NCBI GenBank assembly: GCA_022616275.1 | Contig: JAKEFB010000157.1 | Location: forward strand, 1 to 64,000 | Direction: 5' to 3' | DNA length: 64,000 nucleotides | Source: Chloroflexota bacterium | GTDB lineage: Bacteria; Chloroflexota; Anaerolineae; Promineifilales; Promineifilaceae | Shown here: piece by piece, positions 33,654 to 56,826 of the stretch | Numbering within the stretch: position 1 is the first letter of the stretch | Layout of the letters: each line of letters starts with the position of its first letter | Made by a program: the position numbers and the translations under genes | The notes under the pieces: model-generated | Told to the model about the DNA's origin: nothing | What the model saw: only the letters and a program-made list of their open reading frames with translations | Database searches by the model: none

Positions 33654-33794
33654 CTTTGTAGAATTTGAGGCAAGGACACTTTTTGACGCAAAGGCGCAAA
33701 GGCGCAAAGATAAACAGTAAAAGACATAAAGAAAACCCTCTGTGCCCTCTCTGTGAACCTCTGTGTCTCCTCTGTGTAACTTAAAGGATCTTTA

Positions 33795-34847
33795 ATGACC
33801 GAAATCAGGCTGACCTCGCTGGCTTCGTGCGCGGGCTGAGCGTCCAAACTCGGCCCGGCCGAGCTGGCGCACGTGCTGCAGCCCTTGCGAGAGACATTCA
33901 TAGCCGAAGATTACCCTGACCTGTTGGTTGGACTGGTCGCGGCCGACGACGCCGCCGTCTACCGTCTCAACGAGCGGCAGGCCATCGTCACCACCACCGA
34001 CTTCTTCCCCCCGGTCGTGGACGATCCCCACGACTTCGGGGCCATTGCCGCGGCCAATGCCCTGTCCGACGTCTACGCCATGGGCGGCCGGCCTCTCTTT
34101 GCCATCAACCTGGTCGCCTTCCCCGATAATCTGGAGATAGAGATTCTGGCCCAGATTTTGCGCGGCGGCGCCGAGAAAGTGGCCGAAGCCGGGGCGGTGA
34201 TTGCCGGCGGCCACAGCGTCACCGACAGGGAGCCCAAGTACGGGCTGGCCGTCACCGGCGTGGTTGACCCGGCCCAGGTGAAGACCAAGGGCGGTAGCCG
34301 GCCGGGGGAGCTGTTGCTGCTGACCAAGCCCCTGGGGACCGGCGTGGTAACCACGGCCCTCAAGCAACAGATCGCCGGCGAAGTTGACGTGGCCGCGGCC
34401 GTGGCCAGTATGAAGCAACTCAACCGCCAGGCGGCCGAAGCGGCCGAAGCGGCCGGCGTGCGCAGCATGACCGACGTGACCGGCTTTGGCCTGCTGGGCC
34501 ACGCCCACGAAATGGCCCACCTGGGCCTGGTCAATTTCCGCCTCTTCCTGGACCGGCTGCCCTGGCTGCCGGGGGCCGTTGCCTACGGCCAGGCCGGCGC
34601 TTTCCCCGGCGGCATGGGCCGCAACCGCGATTACTTTGCCCCCTGGCTGACATTTGACGAGAATGTCACGCCGCTGATGCAGGAGATGCTCTGGACACCG
34701 GAGACTTCCGGCGGGCTGCTGGCGGCCGTCGCCCCGGAGGCTGTGGCCACCTTCCAGGCCCATTGCCCTTCGGCCGTCGTCGTCGGCCAGGTCTGGCCAG
34801 GAGACGGGCACATTCACGTCACCCACAGCGGGGCCTGGCATGGTTAG
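33795..34847 (+). CDS. selD: Selenophosphate synthase, itself a selenoprotein (UGA-Sec at residue 15)
   Basis: SelD makes selenophosphate from selenide and ATP for Sec synthesis. Read conventionally the frame starts only at 33873, lacking the catalytic loop. Reading upstream in frame gives ATG at 33795 with AAAGG before it, then 'LTSLASCAG-U-ASKLGPAELAHVL', where U is TGA at 33837-33839. This aligns with the G-x-G-C-x-C-K loop of SelD, Sec replacing the catalytic Cys (Cys17 of E. coli) and Lys retained. The rest is canonical: 'TTDFFPPVVDD', 'ANALSDVYAMGGRPLFAINL', 'IAGGHSVTDREPKYGLAVTG', 'DVTGFGLLGHAHEMA'. The product is 350 residues. SelB is at 48167. The stop overlaps the next gene by 8 bp. 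Confidence 0.9.
33837..33870 (+). promoter_or_regulatory. In-frame UGA and candidate bacterial SECIS hairpin
   Basis: After UGA (33837-33839), CTCGGC (33849-33854) pairs with GCCGAG (33858-33863) around a CCG loop; GCG/CGC pairs near 33840 and 33868 can extend the base. The apical loop lies 16-18 nt after the UGA, within the range for bacterial SECIS elements recognised by SelB. Confidence 0.7.
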
Positions 34848-36555
34848 AACCGTTCCCAGCCGGGCCAACGAGGAAATCGCCCTCTACATCCGCACCTACT
34901 ACTCCCTGCTGCGCAGCAGCCGCGAGGTGCAAATCAAGAGCCTGATCGAGGCTCACACTCGCATTGGCTCGGCGCTGCACGTGGCCGCGGACGAGCCCAC
35001 GCCCGACATGGCCGCCTTCATTTACACCATCCTGCGCCTGCCCGCCTGCCTGGAGCAGGTCCGGCTGGTGATCATGGGCCAGTCGGAGCAGGTCTTTGCC
35101 AAGCACGGCTACCCGGACGTGGAATCCTGGCAGCGGGTCGGCGCCCCGGCCCGGCGACGGCGGGCTTTTTTTGACGGCCGGGACACGCTGGCCGTCTACA
35201 TTGCCAGCCGCTCCGACATTGACGACATCATCCCTATTCTGACCGCCTACCAGATTGAGCGAGGCAAGCTGCGCCAGTTGCTGGACCAGCCGCCGGTGGT
35301 TCAGTGGCTAAGCCAGCGCCAGGGCAGCGCTTTGCAGGCGGAAGATCTGGAGCAACTGGCTCAGTGGACCGGCATTCCTGTGGACGACCTGGATCGGCTG
35401 CGCCGCATCTGGCAGGGCAACATGGCCGGCCGGTTGTTGGCCATTGCCCAGGACCGCCACTCCCTGGCCGTCCGCCTGCTGGCAGGCTCGCTGGCCGACT
35501 ATAAGCGGGCCACCAACCGCTGGTGGCAGCACGTAGAGGACAGCCTGCCGGAAGTGGCGTTCGCCAACCGGCCGATCTACTTTATCTCCAGCAACACCCA
35601 CAGCATGGCCAACCTGTTGAGCGGCTACGCCCTGCAGCGCGAAGCGGAACTGGTCTCTTTTATCGAATCCCAGGGATCGGCCGACCTGCAAACCGAGTAC
35701 CAGGACATCCTCCAGCAGAACGTGCCCAGCAGCCGGGAGAACTTCCTTTATTACACCCAGAAGAAATACGAAACGGTCCACCCCCAGGCCCGCGCCAGCC
35801 GCCTGGCCCACGAGCAGCAGGCCGGCATCCGGCGCGTTCCTAGCCAGCACGTCTTCGACATTGAAGTCCAGGTCGTCTCCCTCAATCAGCTCCGGCCGGC
35901 CTGGCTGGACCCGCGCCTGCGCCGGCCAGGCATTGAGGCGCTATCCGGGAGCGAGGCGCTGATCGTCAACATTGACTTTCCCCTGGGCATGGCCGCGTAC
36001 CAGGTGCTCTCCGAAATTGTCCGCAACGTGGCCGAGTTCCGGGGCGTTTACATGATGGGCAAGGCCGCCACCTTGAACGGCCGGATCGGCGACGTGATGA
36101 TTGCCAGCGTCGTCCACGACGAGCAGTCGCTCAACACCTACCTGTTCAACAACTGCTTTACGGCCGACGACGTGGCCCCCCACCTGGTCTACGGCACGGT
36201 GATGGACAACCAGAAAGCGATCACCGCCCTGGGCACTTTCCTGCAAAATGAAGAGTACATGGCCGTCTTTTACCAGGAAGGGTACACGGTGATGGAGATG
36301 GAGGCCGGGCCGTATTTGAGCAGTATCTACGAAATGATCCGGCCGCAGCGTTTCCCTCGCGACGAAGTCGTCAACTTGTACGGCGCGCCCTTCCCGATTG
36401 GCGTCCTCCACTACGCCTCCGACACCCCTTTTAGCAAAGGCAAAAACCTCGGCTCGCAAAATCTGTCCTACTTCGGCATGGACCCCACCTACGCCACGAT
36501 GATCGCCATCCTTCGCCACATCCTGGCCGACGAAATTCGTCATGTAGGGGTGTAG
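34840..36555 (+). CDS. Large unrecognised protein with nucleoside-phosphorylase-like C-terminus
   Basis: A 571-residue soluble protein overlapping selD by 8 bp, so translation is probably coupled. Residues 1-about 340 are helical with no family I can name ('YYSLLRSSREVQIKSLIEAHTRIGSALH', 'RRRRAFFDGRDTLAVYIASRSDIDDII'). Residues about 365-571 show a pattern like the PNP/UDP phosphorylase-AMP nucleosidase superfamily: 'GVYMMGKAATLNGRIGDVMIAS', then M485-E486-M487-E488-A ('MEMEAGPYLSSIYE') and S527-D528-T-P ('HYASDTPFSKGKNLG'), equivalent to the ribose-binding Met-Glu and the catalytic Asp. Cleaving or sensing an N-glycosidic nucleotide is an inference. Link to Sec metabolism rests only on the overlap. 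Confidence 0.7.
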   Translation: MVRTVPSRANEEIALYIRTYYSLLRSSREVQIKSLIEAHTRIGSALHVAADEPTPDMAAFIYTILRLPACLEQVRLVIMGQSEQVFAKHGYPDVESWQRVGAPARRRRAFFDGRDTLAVYIASRSDIDDIIPILTAYQIERGKLRQLLDQPPVVQWLSQRQGSALQAEDLEQLAQWTGIPVDDLDRLRRIWQGNMAGRLLAIAQDRHSLAVRLLAGSLADYKRATNRWWQHVEDSLPEVAFANRPIYFISSNTHSMANLLSGYALQREAELVSFIESQGSADLQTEYQDILQQNVPSSRENFLYYTQKKYETVHPQARASRLAHEQQAGIRRVPSQHVFDIEVQVVSLNQLRPAWLDPRLRRPGIEALSGSEALIVNIDFPLGMAAYQVLSEIVRNVAEFRGVYMMGKAATLNGRIGDVMIASVVHDEQSLNTYLFNNCFTADDVAPHLVYGTVMDNQKAITALGTFLQNEEYMAVFYQEGYTVMEMEAGPYLSSIYEMIRPQRFPRDEVVNLYGAPFPIGVLHYASDTPFSKGKNLGSQNLSYFGMDPTYATMIAILRHILADEIRHVGV

Positions 36556-48019: not shown

Positions 48020-48160
48020 AGTGGGCGAGTGGCGACCAAGGGTCGCTGCGAGTTTGCGAGTCTGCGAGTTTGCGAGTGACCTGCCCTTGCTAACTGCATA
48101 CTTGCTTACTTGCATACTTGCTTACTTGCATACTTGCCCCCCTGCCCCTTGCCCCCTGTT
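48020..48160. repeat. CTTGCATACTTGCTTA tract forming the selB leader
   Basis: GAGTTTGCGAGTCTGCGA words, then at least four CTTGCATACTTGCTTA-type words reaching almost to the selB start. No Shine-Dalgarno sequence is visible. Confidence 0.85.
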
Positions 48161-48166
48161 ACCTCC

Positions 48167-50032
48167 ATGCACGTCATCGGCACGGCCGGCCACGTAGACC
48201 ACGGCAAATCCACCCTGGTCAAAGCGCTGACAGGGATTGATCCCGACCGCCTGAAAGAGGAAAAGGAGCGGGAGATGACCATTGACCTGGGCTTTGCCTG
48301 GCTCAGGCTGGACGGCGAAGAAGTGGGGATTGTAGACGTGCCCGGCCATCGCGACTTTATCGAAAACATGCTCGCCGGCGTCGGCGGGATTGACCTGGCC
48401 CTCTTCGTCGTCGCCGCCGACGAGGGGGTCATGCCCCAGACCCGTGAACACCTGGCCATTCTCGACCTGCTGGAAGTGCGCGGCGGGGTGGTCGCCCTGA
48501 CCAAAGTAGACCTGGTGGACGACCCGGACTGGCTGGAGCTGGTCACGCTGGACGTGGCCGAAGCCCTGGCCGGCACCGCCCTGGCCGACGCGCCCATTGT
48601 GCCCGTGTCGGCCCGCACCGGCCGGGGCCTGGCCGAGCTACAAGCCACGCTACGGGAACGCCTGGCCCAGGTCGAACCCCGGCCGGACGACGGCCGCCCC
48701 CGCCTGCCCATTGACCGGGTCTTCAGCCTGAGTGGCTTTGGCACGGTAGTGACCGGTACGCTCACCGGCGGCCAGTTGCGCACCGGCGACGCCGTCGAAA
48801 TCCAGCCGGCCGGCCTGAAAGGGCGCGTTCGCGGTCTGCAAACCCACCGCACCAAGCTGGACGCGGCCCGGCCGGGCAGCCGGGTGGCCGTGAATGTGAG
48901 TGGCATTGATAAAGACGAGGTCCGGCGCGGCGACGTGCTGGCCGGACCGGGGGTGGTGCGGGGCACGCTCCTGTGCGACGCCCTCTACCGCCACCTGCCG
49001 GACGCCGACAGCCCGCTGGGCCACAATGTCGAGGTCAAGCTGTTCGCCGGCGCGGCCGAGGTCGTGGCCCGGACGCGCATCCTGGGGGCCAGGCAAATTG
49101 AGCCGGGACAGCAGGGCTGGCTGCAACTGGCCCTCAGCCAGCCGGTGGCCATCGTCCGGGGCGACCGCTTCATCCTGCGCCGGCCGTCTCCGCCAGCCAC
49201 GCTGGGCGGCGGCCAGGTGCTCGACCCCCACCCCGGCCGGCGCCACCCCCGCTTCCGGCCGGAAGTCACCGGCCGGCTAGAAACGCTGGCCCAGGGCACG
49301 CCGGCCGACCTGCTGTTGCAGACCATCCGCCGGCTGGAACCGGCCATGCGGGCCGACGTCTTGAAGCGCTCCGGCCTCACGCCAGAAGCGGCCGAAGCCG
49401 CCTGGCAGGAGCTGGCCGGCCAGGGCCAGGTACACGCCCTGGAGCAGGTCGTCATCTCGCGGGCCGGCCTGCAGCGGCTGCAAGAGCAGTTAACCGGCGC
49501 GATAGCCGATTTTCACCGCCAATACCCGCTGCGCCTGGGCATGTCCCGCGAGGAACTGCGCAGCCGCCTGAAATTGCCGGCGGCCGTCTTTAATCCGCTG
49601 CTGGCCCAGGCGGCCGCCGGCGGGTTGTTGGTCGAGAGCGGGGCGCTGGTCCGCCTGCCGGACCACGCGGTGCGTTTTACGCCAACCCAGCAGGCGGCTA
49701 TTGACCGGTTGCTGCGCCGCTTCGAGCGGGCCGGCGTCAATTCGCCCAGCGTCAAAGAGGCCCGGGCGGAGGTCGGCGACGACGTTTACTTTGCCCTGCT
49801 GGACCTGGGCCGGCTGCGGCCGGTCAGCGACGACGTAGTCTACACCACTGAGGAGTACGAACGGATTGTGGAACAGATGAAGGGGTACTTGCGCCGGCAC
49901 GGCCGGGTCAACGCCGCCCAGGTGCGCGACCTGTTCAACACCAGCCGCAAATACGCCATTGCCTTACTGGAGCACCTGGACGAGATCCGCGTCACCCGCC
50001 GCGTTGGCGACGACCGCGAGCTAGTTGAGTGA
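48167..50032 (+). CDS. selB: Selenocysteine-specific elongation factor SelB
   Basis: A 621-residue translational GTPase that delivers Sec-tRNA to UGA codons marked by a SECIS. G1 is '[14 protein letters not shown]', switch I has '[17 protein letters not shown]' (the SelB-type [11 protein letters not shown]), G3 '[12 protein letters not shown]', G4 'TKVD', then EF-Tu-like domains 2-3 ('[19 protein letters not shown]') and C-terminal winged helices ('[29 protein letters not shown]') that bind the SECIS. The frame opens at 48110 in a repeat tract; homology starts at ATG 48167. SelD with an in-frame UGA lies 14 kb upstream; SelA and tRNA-Sec are not in the window. Confidence 0.95.
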
Positions 50033-55446: not shown

Positions 55447-55470
55447 GTAATTGGGTAATTACCCAATTAC
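55447..55470. terminator. 24-bp perfect palindrome between convergent genes
   Basis: Perfect palindrome centred on TTGGGTAATTACCCAA, between the ends of the GT4 gene (+) and serS (-); the serS stop lies within it. A TCTTTT run follows on the plus strand. Probably a bidirectional terminator. Confidence 0.65.
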
Positions 55471-56826
55471 CTCTTTTCCGCCCATATACGGCCGCAGCGC
55501 CTTGGGGATGACGATGCTGCCGTCAGCCTGCTGGTTATTTTCGATGATGGCAATCATCACCCGGGGCAGGGCCAGGCCGCTGCCGTTGAGGGTGTGGACG
55601 TAGCGGACCTTGCCGCCGCCGGCCGGGCGGTAACGAACGTTGGCCCGGCGGGCCTGGAAATCCTCGCAATTGCTACACGAGCTGACTTCCAGCCACTCCC
55701 GGCAGCCCCCCGCCCAGACCTCCAGGTCAAACTTCCTGGCCGCGGCAAAGCCCAGGTCGCCGGTAACCATCTCCACCAGCCGGTAGGGTAGCTCCAGCAC
55801 TTCACAAATGTCGCTGGCGTGGCGGATCAGCTCGTCCAGGGCCGCGTAGCTGGTCTCCGGGGTGGTGAACTTATACATCTCTACCTTGTCGAACTGGTGG
55901 CCACGTTTAATGCCGCGCACGTCGCGGCCGGCGCTCATCTTCTCCCGCCGGAAGCAGGGCGTGTAGGCCACGTAGTTCAACGGCAGCTCGGCCTCCTCCA
56001 GGATTTCGTCCCGGTGCAGGTTGGTCAGGGCAATTTCGGCCGTGCCCAGCCACATAAAATCCTCTTCGGCGTCGCGGTAAATGTTGTCGGCAAACTTGGG
56101 CAACTGGGCCGCGCCGACAAACATCTCCGAGCGGACCATGAAGGGCGGGTAAATCTCGGTATAGCCGTGCTGGTTGACGTGGTAATCCAGCATAAACTGG
56201 ATCAGGGCCCGTGGCAGGCGCGCGCCCGGCCCTTTCAGCACGTAAAAGCGCGAGCCGCTCAACTTCACCCCCCGCTCAAAGTCGAGGATGCCCAGCGCCG
56301 GCCCCAGATCCCAATGGGCCTTAGGCTCGAAATCAAAGGCCGGCAGCGGCGGGCCTTTCGGCTCGTAAGTCTTGTTGTGGCTATCATCCGGGCCATCGGG
56401 CACGCTCTCGTGGGGCAGGTTCGGCACCCACAGCAGCTTTTCTCGCAGCTCGGCTTCTACCTGGCGCAGTTCGTCGTCCAATTCGGTAATCCGGTCGCCA
56501 ATGCGACGCGTTTCTTCTTTGGCCGCCTCGGCGCTGGCCGCCAGGGCGGCCAGCTCCTCACGCAGGGCAGCCAGCGGCCGGCCGATCTCCTGACCGGCCT
56601 CGGCCCGACTTACTTCGGCCTCCAGCTTCTTCAGGCTGCCGATCCACCGGCCGATCTGCTGCGAGGTCTCGTTGCGCTGCCGGCGCAGCTCTTCCACTTC
56701 CTGGATAATCTCCCGTCGCCGCGTATCGGCCGCCACGATCTCGTCAATCGGCGCCGTATCGTTCAACCGCGCAATTTGTTCCTTGACCCATTCAGGCTTC
56801 TCTCGAATCAGGTTAATATCTATCAT
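55459..56826 (-). CDS. serS: Seryl-tRNA synthetase
   Basis: A 455-residue class II synthetase that charges tRNA-Ser and, in Sec-using cells, tRNA-Sec. The N-terminal long coiled-coil arm (about 30-110) is followed by motif 2 'YTPCFRREKMSAGRDVRGIKRGHQFDKVEMYKF' and motif 3 'LNGSGLALPRVMIAIIENNQQADGSIVIPKALRPYM'. 'EVSSCSNCEDFQARRANVRYR' is typical of bacterial SerRS. It lies downstream of a T-box and a small membrane ORF on the same transcript. Confidence 0.97.
   Translation of the reverse strand: MIDINLIREKPEWVKEQIARLNDTAPIDEIVAADTRRREIIQEVEELRRQRNETSQQIGRWIGSLKKLEAEVSRAEAGQEIGRPLAALREELAALAASAEAAKEETRRIGDRITELDDELRQVEAELREKLLWVPNLPHESVPDGPDDSHNKTYEPKGPPLPAFDFEPKAHWDLGPALGILDFERGVKLSGSRFYVLKGPGARLPRALIQFMLDYHVNQHGYTEIYPPFMVRSEMFVGAAQLPKFADNIYRDAEEDFMWLGTAEIALTNLHRDEILEEAELPLNYVAYTPCFRREKMSAGRDVRGIKRGHQFDKVEMYKFTTPETSYAALDELIRHASDICEVLELPYRLVEMVTGDLGFAAARKFDLEVWAGGCREWLEVSSCSNCEDFQARRANVRYRPAGGGKVRYVHTLNGSGLALPRVMIAIIENNQQADGSIVIPKALRPYMGGKEVIG

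Follow-up and report, generated by a model that had tools for sequence, protein, structure and literature searches.

Introduction

Selenocysteine (Sec) at the catalytic position of selenide, water dikinase (SelD) is of a known kind. According to the part of PMC4561486 that deals with this enzyme, Sec is present in 19% of the SelD genes detected among 223 reference prokaryotes, always at the same position, bacterial selenocysteine insertion sequence (bSECIS) elements were found by RNAz in the Sec-containing SelD genes, and fusions of NifS with SelD are known. In the bSECIS model, as given in PMC13188914, the hairpin has a stem of 4–16 base pairs (bp) and a loop of 3–9 nucleotides (nt) with G as its first or second nucleotide, the distance from the UGA codon to the loop is 16–37 nt, and the minimum free energy is −7.5 kcal/mol or lower; passages in PMC13188914 and PMC12013277 note that some bacterial SECIS elements do not fit the model. 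Here we analyse the selD gene in a stretch of 64,000 nt from a Chloroflexota bacterium (assembly GCA_022616275.1, contig JAKEFB010000157.1; the whole stretch is called the window below), where an in-frame UGA codon very probably encodes Sec and is followed closely by two hairpins, the second of which is a candidate for the SECIS. A search of the open-access literature returned nothing linking selenoproteins of Chloroflexota with SECIS elements, although an earlier publication may still exist, and the sole match for selenocysteine SelD in Anaerolineae concerned the phylum KSB1.

Results

The selD gene and its UGA codon

The selD gene occupies positions 33795–34847 of the forward strand, stop codon included, and is defined by translation with TGA read as Sec and by profile matches. 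It starts with ATG at 33795 and its stop codon ends at 34847, with a single TGA within the frame, giving a product of 350 amino acids with Sec as residue 15. The motif AAAGG, read in the sequence at 33783–33787, lies 7 nt upstream of the ATG and is likely the ribosome binding site; both the start codon and this site had been proposed in an earlier prediction made from the letters of the window alone (the original prediction). With UGA translated as Sec the product matches TIGR00476 (SelD) at 372.1 bits, the curated cut-off being 125, and PRK00943 at 349.1 bits, the cut-off being 299, and the AIRS domains are present. The UGA itself is codon 15, at 33837–33839, and by the translation and by comparison with relatives it stands at the catalytic Cys/Sec position, as had been claimed. 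The catalytic loop reads L-T-S-L-A-S-C-A-G-U-A-S-K, and its AG-U-ASK aligns with AG*xxK of the relatives, so that the catalytic Cys/Sec loop and the Lys by which a SelD is recognized are both there. The Lys had been placed directly after the UGA; it is present, as the third residue after it.

A mechanical call of open reading frames (ORFs) puts the start of this gene at the GTG at 33873–33875, by which 26 codons and with them the active site are lost, just as anticipated. One may thus consider that the UGA is a real stop and that a shorter SelD-like protein is made from GTG 33873, which is indeed what ordinary ORF calling puts out. This is very improbable, because the catalytic loop upstream of the GTG is conserved in frame with the UGA among the relatives, the short protein would be without the catalytic residue, and the Sec machinery is present in the genome, as described below. 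We conclude that selD is a working selenophosphate synthetase gene and that Sec is, almost certainly, inserted at its catalytic position by way of the UGA at 33837–33839, a prediction from sequence whose strength refers to the insertion of Sec at this codon and not to the choice of the hairpin. The claim of a Sec-encoding selD cut short by ordinary ORF calling is therefore well supported by the profile matches, the machinery and the relatives.

Conservation of the UGA codon among relatives

We searched 119 genomes, the window's own included, accepting protein matches with E of 0.001 or better, and at least 114 of the 119 genomes have some match to the SelD protein. The weakest of them are short stretches of about 30% identity that lack the UGA, and they appear to be related kinases and not SelD. 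From the matches listed we took every one covering the N-terminus and, in addition, three odd ones, giving 108 loci and 109 N-termini with that of the window included. Among these listed matches the catalytic codon is UGA in 106 of the 109 N-termini, Cys in one and unreadable in two (L114 with an ambiguous base and L116 with a run of N). The 106 UGA genes are not all from separate genomes, as three genomes (G051, G057 and G087) contribute two each. The lone Cys row (L115, G104:C515) is a NifS-like protein fused to SelD, and the same genome carries a UGA-containing selD (L101). Close homologues that begin at the later codon and are without the catalytic loop, the outcome contrary to the original prediction, were not what was found, for the loop and the UGA are kept upstream of the later start.

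In a second collection the named relatives are mostly assemblies of Chloroflexi, Anaerolineae and Ardenticatenaceae, which makes it very probable that the window belongs to the class Anaerolineae. Two Anaerolineae SelD genes of this collection (L168 and L181) carry TGC at the Sec codon. Two side observations concern the relatives. One locus (L065, G057:C278) carries two tandem copies of selD; each has the UGA as well as the distal hairpin described below, and the second reaches the contig end. A contig of 1.02 Mb titled as the cyanobacterium Pleurocapsa minor (L185, JAHHHY010000001.1) carries an Anaerolineae-like selD and is probably a mis-assigned contig from a co-culture.

Selenocysteine machinery and other Sec genes

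The window's genome assembly has 8.53 Mb in 309 contigs and is 98.25% complete and 5.5% contaminated. The gene of the Sec-specific elongation factor, selB, lies in the window itself, as claimed, at 48110–50032 on the forward strand, encoding 640 amino acids when read from a TTG, although the true start may be later; it matches TIGR00475 at 334.8 bits (cut-off 242.25) and has the SelB winged-helix domains. The selA gene is on contig C261 (569 bits, cut-off 267.9) and tRNA-Sec with anticodon UCA is on contig C210 (70.2 bits), and thus selA, selB and tRNA-Sec, the absence of the first or the last of which would have spoken against the original prediction, are all in the genome, as expected where SelD contains Sec. 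The contigs with selA and tRNA-Sec have tetranucleotide correlations of 0.981–0.989 with the window, while 16-kb pieces of the window itself give 0.978–0.992, so that by tetranucleotide make-up selA and selC are unlikely to stem from contaminating DNA; the foreign loci that were compared were shorter, i.e. this control was not length-matched. SelD produces selenophosphate, the selenium donor for SelA. Since SelD makes this donor, a Sec-containing SelD itself requires Sec in order to contribute to Sec synthesis.

Two further UGA genes in the genome are of the formate dehydrogenase type. One, on contig C6, is a formate dehydrogenase alpha gene whose active-site codon is UGA (857.7 bits, above the cut-off); the other, on contig C98, is more distant (L127; TIGR01591, 176 bits against a cut-off of 666). 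The C98 locus, of 3.3 kb, has a lower composition correlation with the window, 0.832, and its membership in the genome is less sure than that of the selA and selC contigs. Judged by eye, the product of the C98 gene has a twin-arginine-like N-terminus.

Two hairpins downstream of the UGA codon

In the following, +1 is the first base after the UGA. Hairpin 1 (33849–33863, forward strand, found by folding; +10 to +24) has the sequence CUCGGC-CCG-GCCGAG, i.e. 6 bp and the loop CCG at +16 to +18. It has a free energy of −8.2 kcal/mol with z of −2.78, a stability matched by only 1 of 200 dinucleotide shuffles. The original prediction took it as a SECIS-like hairpin; it exists and it is stable, but the role of the SECIS is the less likely part of that claim, because the loop CCG is without G in its first two positions, where the bSECIS rule has one. 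Hairpin 2 (33866–33883, forward strand; +27 to +44), supported by the relatives but weak when this sequence is folded by itself, has 6 bp with one bulged A and the apical loop CGUGC (33872–33876; +33 to +37), in which the G-U at +34/+35 comes from the codon of Val27. This codon is the same GTG that ordinary ORF calling takes as the start. Both the loop rule (3–9 nt, G in the first two positions) and the spacing rule (16–37 nt) of bSECIS hold for hairpin 2.

On the basis of these rules and of the comparison described below, we propose that SelB carrying Sec-tRNA would bind a hairpin of the message just downstream, delivering Sec as the UGA reaches the ribosome, and that the hairpin bound would be the distal one, at 33866–33883, with its G-U at +34/+35. 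Hairpin 1 could then act as a folded spacer, folding up 15 of the 26 nt between the UGA and hairpin 2, a role that we regard as possible but somewhat doubtful. With these 15 nt folded, the distal hairpin would begin 11 nt net from the UGA, close to the 12 nt that, as read from the sequences, separate the UGA from the single hairpin in the genome's two formate dehydrogenase-type UGA genes. Of 31 formate dehydrogenase loci, seven gave Cys or an off-frame match and were excluded from the UGA count; in all the 24 UGA sites that were read, two of them in the window's genome, GGUCU is present at +19 to +23. Since all 24 have this loop, it is plausible that SelB reads a G-U loop here. The 24 sites come from genomes of both of the selD types defined below. 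Besides them, one formate dehydrogenase gene (L231, G018:C2) has TGC at the Sec position with the GGUCU hairpin intact at +19 to +23, which looks like a recent change from Sec to Cys with a leftover SECIS.

Comparative evidence for the hairpins

Hairpins were counted in 105 of the 106 UGA genes, as one (L034) was left out by the search pattern though its UGA is seen. With a null of synonymous codons, these 105 unselected genes have a mean z of −1.84 for +10 to +27 and of −1.59 (median −2.04) for +26 to +46, while seven control windows in the same genes have z of −0.48 to +0.23. We scored the distal hairpin as present where GU stands at +34/+35 and the hairpin at the distal site folds at −3 kcal/mol or lower. 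By this rule it is present in 53 of the 56 genes outside the window's family and in 18 of the 49 inside. All the 56 outside genes, unselected, have a mean z of −2.35 for +26 to +46. In the same 56 genes, which repeat the pair counts without selection of rows, 90.3% of the cells of the distal stem pair, compared with 86.8% in shuffles, and 12 cells are changed on both sides, compared with 1.9 in shuffles, with none of 500 shuffles reaching either value. On selected rows the double changes of the distal stem are 8 versus 1.2 without the bulge and 6 versus 1.1 with it, where, as with all the class-wise z values and selected-row pair counts, the rows were picked for having the hairpin in question and the counts are thus biased towards it. 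The window's gene itself has the GU, the 6-bp distal stem with the bulged A and a proximal loop without G, and in the SelD tree it falls in a supported group of four rows (100/96), every one of which is of the distal type.

However, a number of results weigh against the distal hairpin as the SECIS of the window's gene, or against the signal being specific to UGA genes. Folded alone as a stretch of 20 nt, hairpin 2 has −6.1 kcal/mol, short of the published −7.5 kcal/mol or lower, and 72 of 200 shuffles fold as well. When folding is started from +1, +10 or +11, the starts differing in how much of the 5′ end is omitted as held by the ribosome, the pairing probability of hairpin 2 is 0.01, about 0.3 and 0.02, respectively, while that of hairpin 1 is 0.93–1.0, its outermost pair excepted, so that folding favours hairpin 1 over hairpin 2. 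For the window's gene alone, the synonymous null gives p of 0.076 for the distal hairpin and 0.103 when the two hairpins are taken jointly. The entire 48-nt stretch that follows the UGA is not more stably folded than its dinucleotide shuffles (z −0.43), 56 of 200 of which do equally well. Rfam at the gathering score has no match anywhere in the window. In all 49 genes of the window's family, the region +26 to +46 is only weakly structured (mean z −0.73). Of four slid versions of the distal stem, the slide by −1 gives 15 double changes, with only 27% of its cells pairing. Hairpin 1 as a single conserved register was rejected, 44% of its cells being paired among the distal-type genes against 37.5% in shuffles; the double changes of a second register that was tried ('D reg38') are reached by 63 of 500 shuffles.

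Moreover, Cys homologues taken as a control under the same kind of null give −0.78, −1.15 and −0.68 for +10 to +25, +8 to +32 and +26 to +46 (27 Cys rows, a false match with TAG, L200, being included in the z values), where the UGA genes of this comparison, mostly from the same kind of organism as the main set and with many identical contigs, give −1.41, −1.44 and −1.92. As the Cys homologues are not at zero, the contrast between UGA and Cys genes in the proximal region is small. In favour of the distal hairpin, in the two TGC-containing SelD genes (L168 and L181) the GU of the Val codon is retained and the distal stem has decayed, to −3.0 and −2.0 kcal/mol over +26 to +46.

Two other structures can be considered as the SECIS. 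Firstly, SelB may bind hairpin 1, perhaps extended by the pairing of +1 to +7 with +26 to +31. With this lower stem, hairpin 1 is the most stable structure here (−17.7 kcal/mol, pairing probability 0.99–1.0), the region +10 to +27 is more structured than its synonymous versions (z −3.08, p 0.023), the spacing is at the edge of the published range, and two relatives (L046 and L087) have a both-sided pair change in its register. By contrast, a best proximal loop without G, as in hairpin 1, is seen in 37 of the 71 genes that have the distal G-U hairpin and in none of the 34 that lack it; and the passage on ribosome arrival in PMC13188914 states that the arriving ribosome unwinds the lower part of the SECIS. 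We regard hairpin 1 as an unlikely SelB site. Secondly, the SECIS may be a third fold, in which about +12 to +20 would pair with +24 to +34 around the loop CGA at +21 to +23; relatives of the proximal type seem to use such a fold. This fold satisfies the G rule and has −9.6 kcal/mol alone, and in the 20 distinct rows picked for the corresponding hairpin (+13 to +20 with +24 to +31) both-sided changes are frequent, 23 cells against 8.6 in shuffles. It is improbable in the window's gene, because its five inner pairs that were checked have a probability of 0.00 from all three folding starts, it is mutually exclusive with hairpin 1 and with hairpin 2, its stability is matched by 58 of 200 shuffles, and its loop has A after the G rather than G or U.

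Taken together, the distal hairpin at 33866–33883 with the loop CGUGC is probably the SelB site of the window's selD, and we put it forward as the candidate. Because folding of this one sequence favours hairpin 1, this assignment is drawn from the comparison and the loop rule and not from folding.

Two hairpin types in selD

The distal G-U hairpin is absent in 34 of the 105 UGA genes, and 31 of these are in the window's family (n = 49). Of the 34, 33 have a proximal hairpin with G in the loop of −5 kcal/mol or better; in the window's family it is 30 of the 31 that have such a G-loop hairpin nearer the UGA. Typical proximal loops in these genes are GGA at +21 to +23 and GGC at +18 to +20. Five of the 31 (L010, L017, L018, L021 and L024) keep the distal stem with GC replacing GU, and one of them, L017, is the sole gene having neither the distal G-U hairpin nor a proximal G-loop hairpin, with only the distal GC stem. 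At the codon of the distal G-U all 71 distal-type genes have Val, which follows from the rule; among the 31 genes, Val and Ala occur 11 times each, Ile five times, Leu three times and Met once. Besides the 37 distal-type genes whose best proximal loop is without G, nine further ones lack any proximal hairpin that reaches −5 kcal/mol. For the 62 and 33 genes that do have such a proximal hairpin, the Fisher test gives 8.5e-10, a value not corrected for relatedness.

On a SelD tree made without the hairpin codons (49 rows), the hairpin type needs 8 changes, with 5–9 over the bootstrap trees; the well-supported branches force only 2 changes of type, too few independent contrasts for a test. Repeated movement of the SECIS in selD is likely. 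The chances are about even for the fuller picture, in which the hairpin bound by SelB in Anaerolineae selD would have changed place, probably more than once, between a distal site (loop at +33 to +37, the G-U supplied by a Val codon, with a spacer hairpin in front) and proximal sites (loop at +18 to +23), while the formate dehydrogenase SECIS, presumably read by one and the same SelB, has stayed fixed at +19 to +23.

Neighbouring features

A DUF6909 gene (PF21850, 738.9 bits) lies at 34840–36555 on the forward strand, with its ATG still inside the end of selD, so that the genes share 8 nt; given this overlap the two genes may be translated together. The seryl-tRNA synthetase gene serS is at 55459–56826 on the reverse strand (TIGR00414, 478.8 bits, cut-off 301.65). 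Seryl-tRNA synthetase charges tRNA-Sec as well. A profile search for selenouridine synthase (TIGR03167, YbbB/MnmH) gave no match in the window's own genome.

Discussion

The analysis corrects the annotation of this gene. Ordinary ORF calling removes the active site of SelD, and the false start codon that it chooses doubles as the codon in the loop of the likely SECIS. Should the SECIS have moved, the Val codon that supplies the distal G-U becomes free to change to Ala, Ile, Leu or Met. Moreover, if the movement among orthologues is true, these genes would form a natural test set for what SelB needs in terms of the loop letters, the distance from the UGA and folded spacers; the requirements of SelB are the point where, by the passages concerned in PMC13188914 and PMC12013277, the models of bacterial SECIS remain loose.

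It is noted that the layout of the SECIS is the sole part that may be new. In comparison with the bacterial Sec-containing SelD proteins of TIGR00476, there is no difference at the protein level, with the same UGA at one catalytic position and a bSECIS downstream; what differs is that here the UGA is near-universal among the relatives and that the hairpin layout looks double. In comparison with the bSECIS consensus, hairpin 2 is like it in having a loop of 5 nt with G second and then U and a distance of 32 nt from the UGA to the loop, and is unlike it in that the stem has a bulged A and only −6.1 kcal/mol and that another hairpin fills the intervening space. The SECIS elements of UGA formate dehydrogenase genes, a kind that includes the fdhF element of E. 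coli, are represented in this genome by those on contigs C6 and C98, which resemble hairpin 2 of selD in being hairpins within the coding sequence whose loop contains G-U, and the two kinds presumably share one SelB. They are, however, single hairpins with the loop at +19 to +23, while the loop of hairpin 2 in selD is at +33 to +37.
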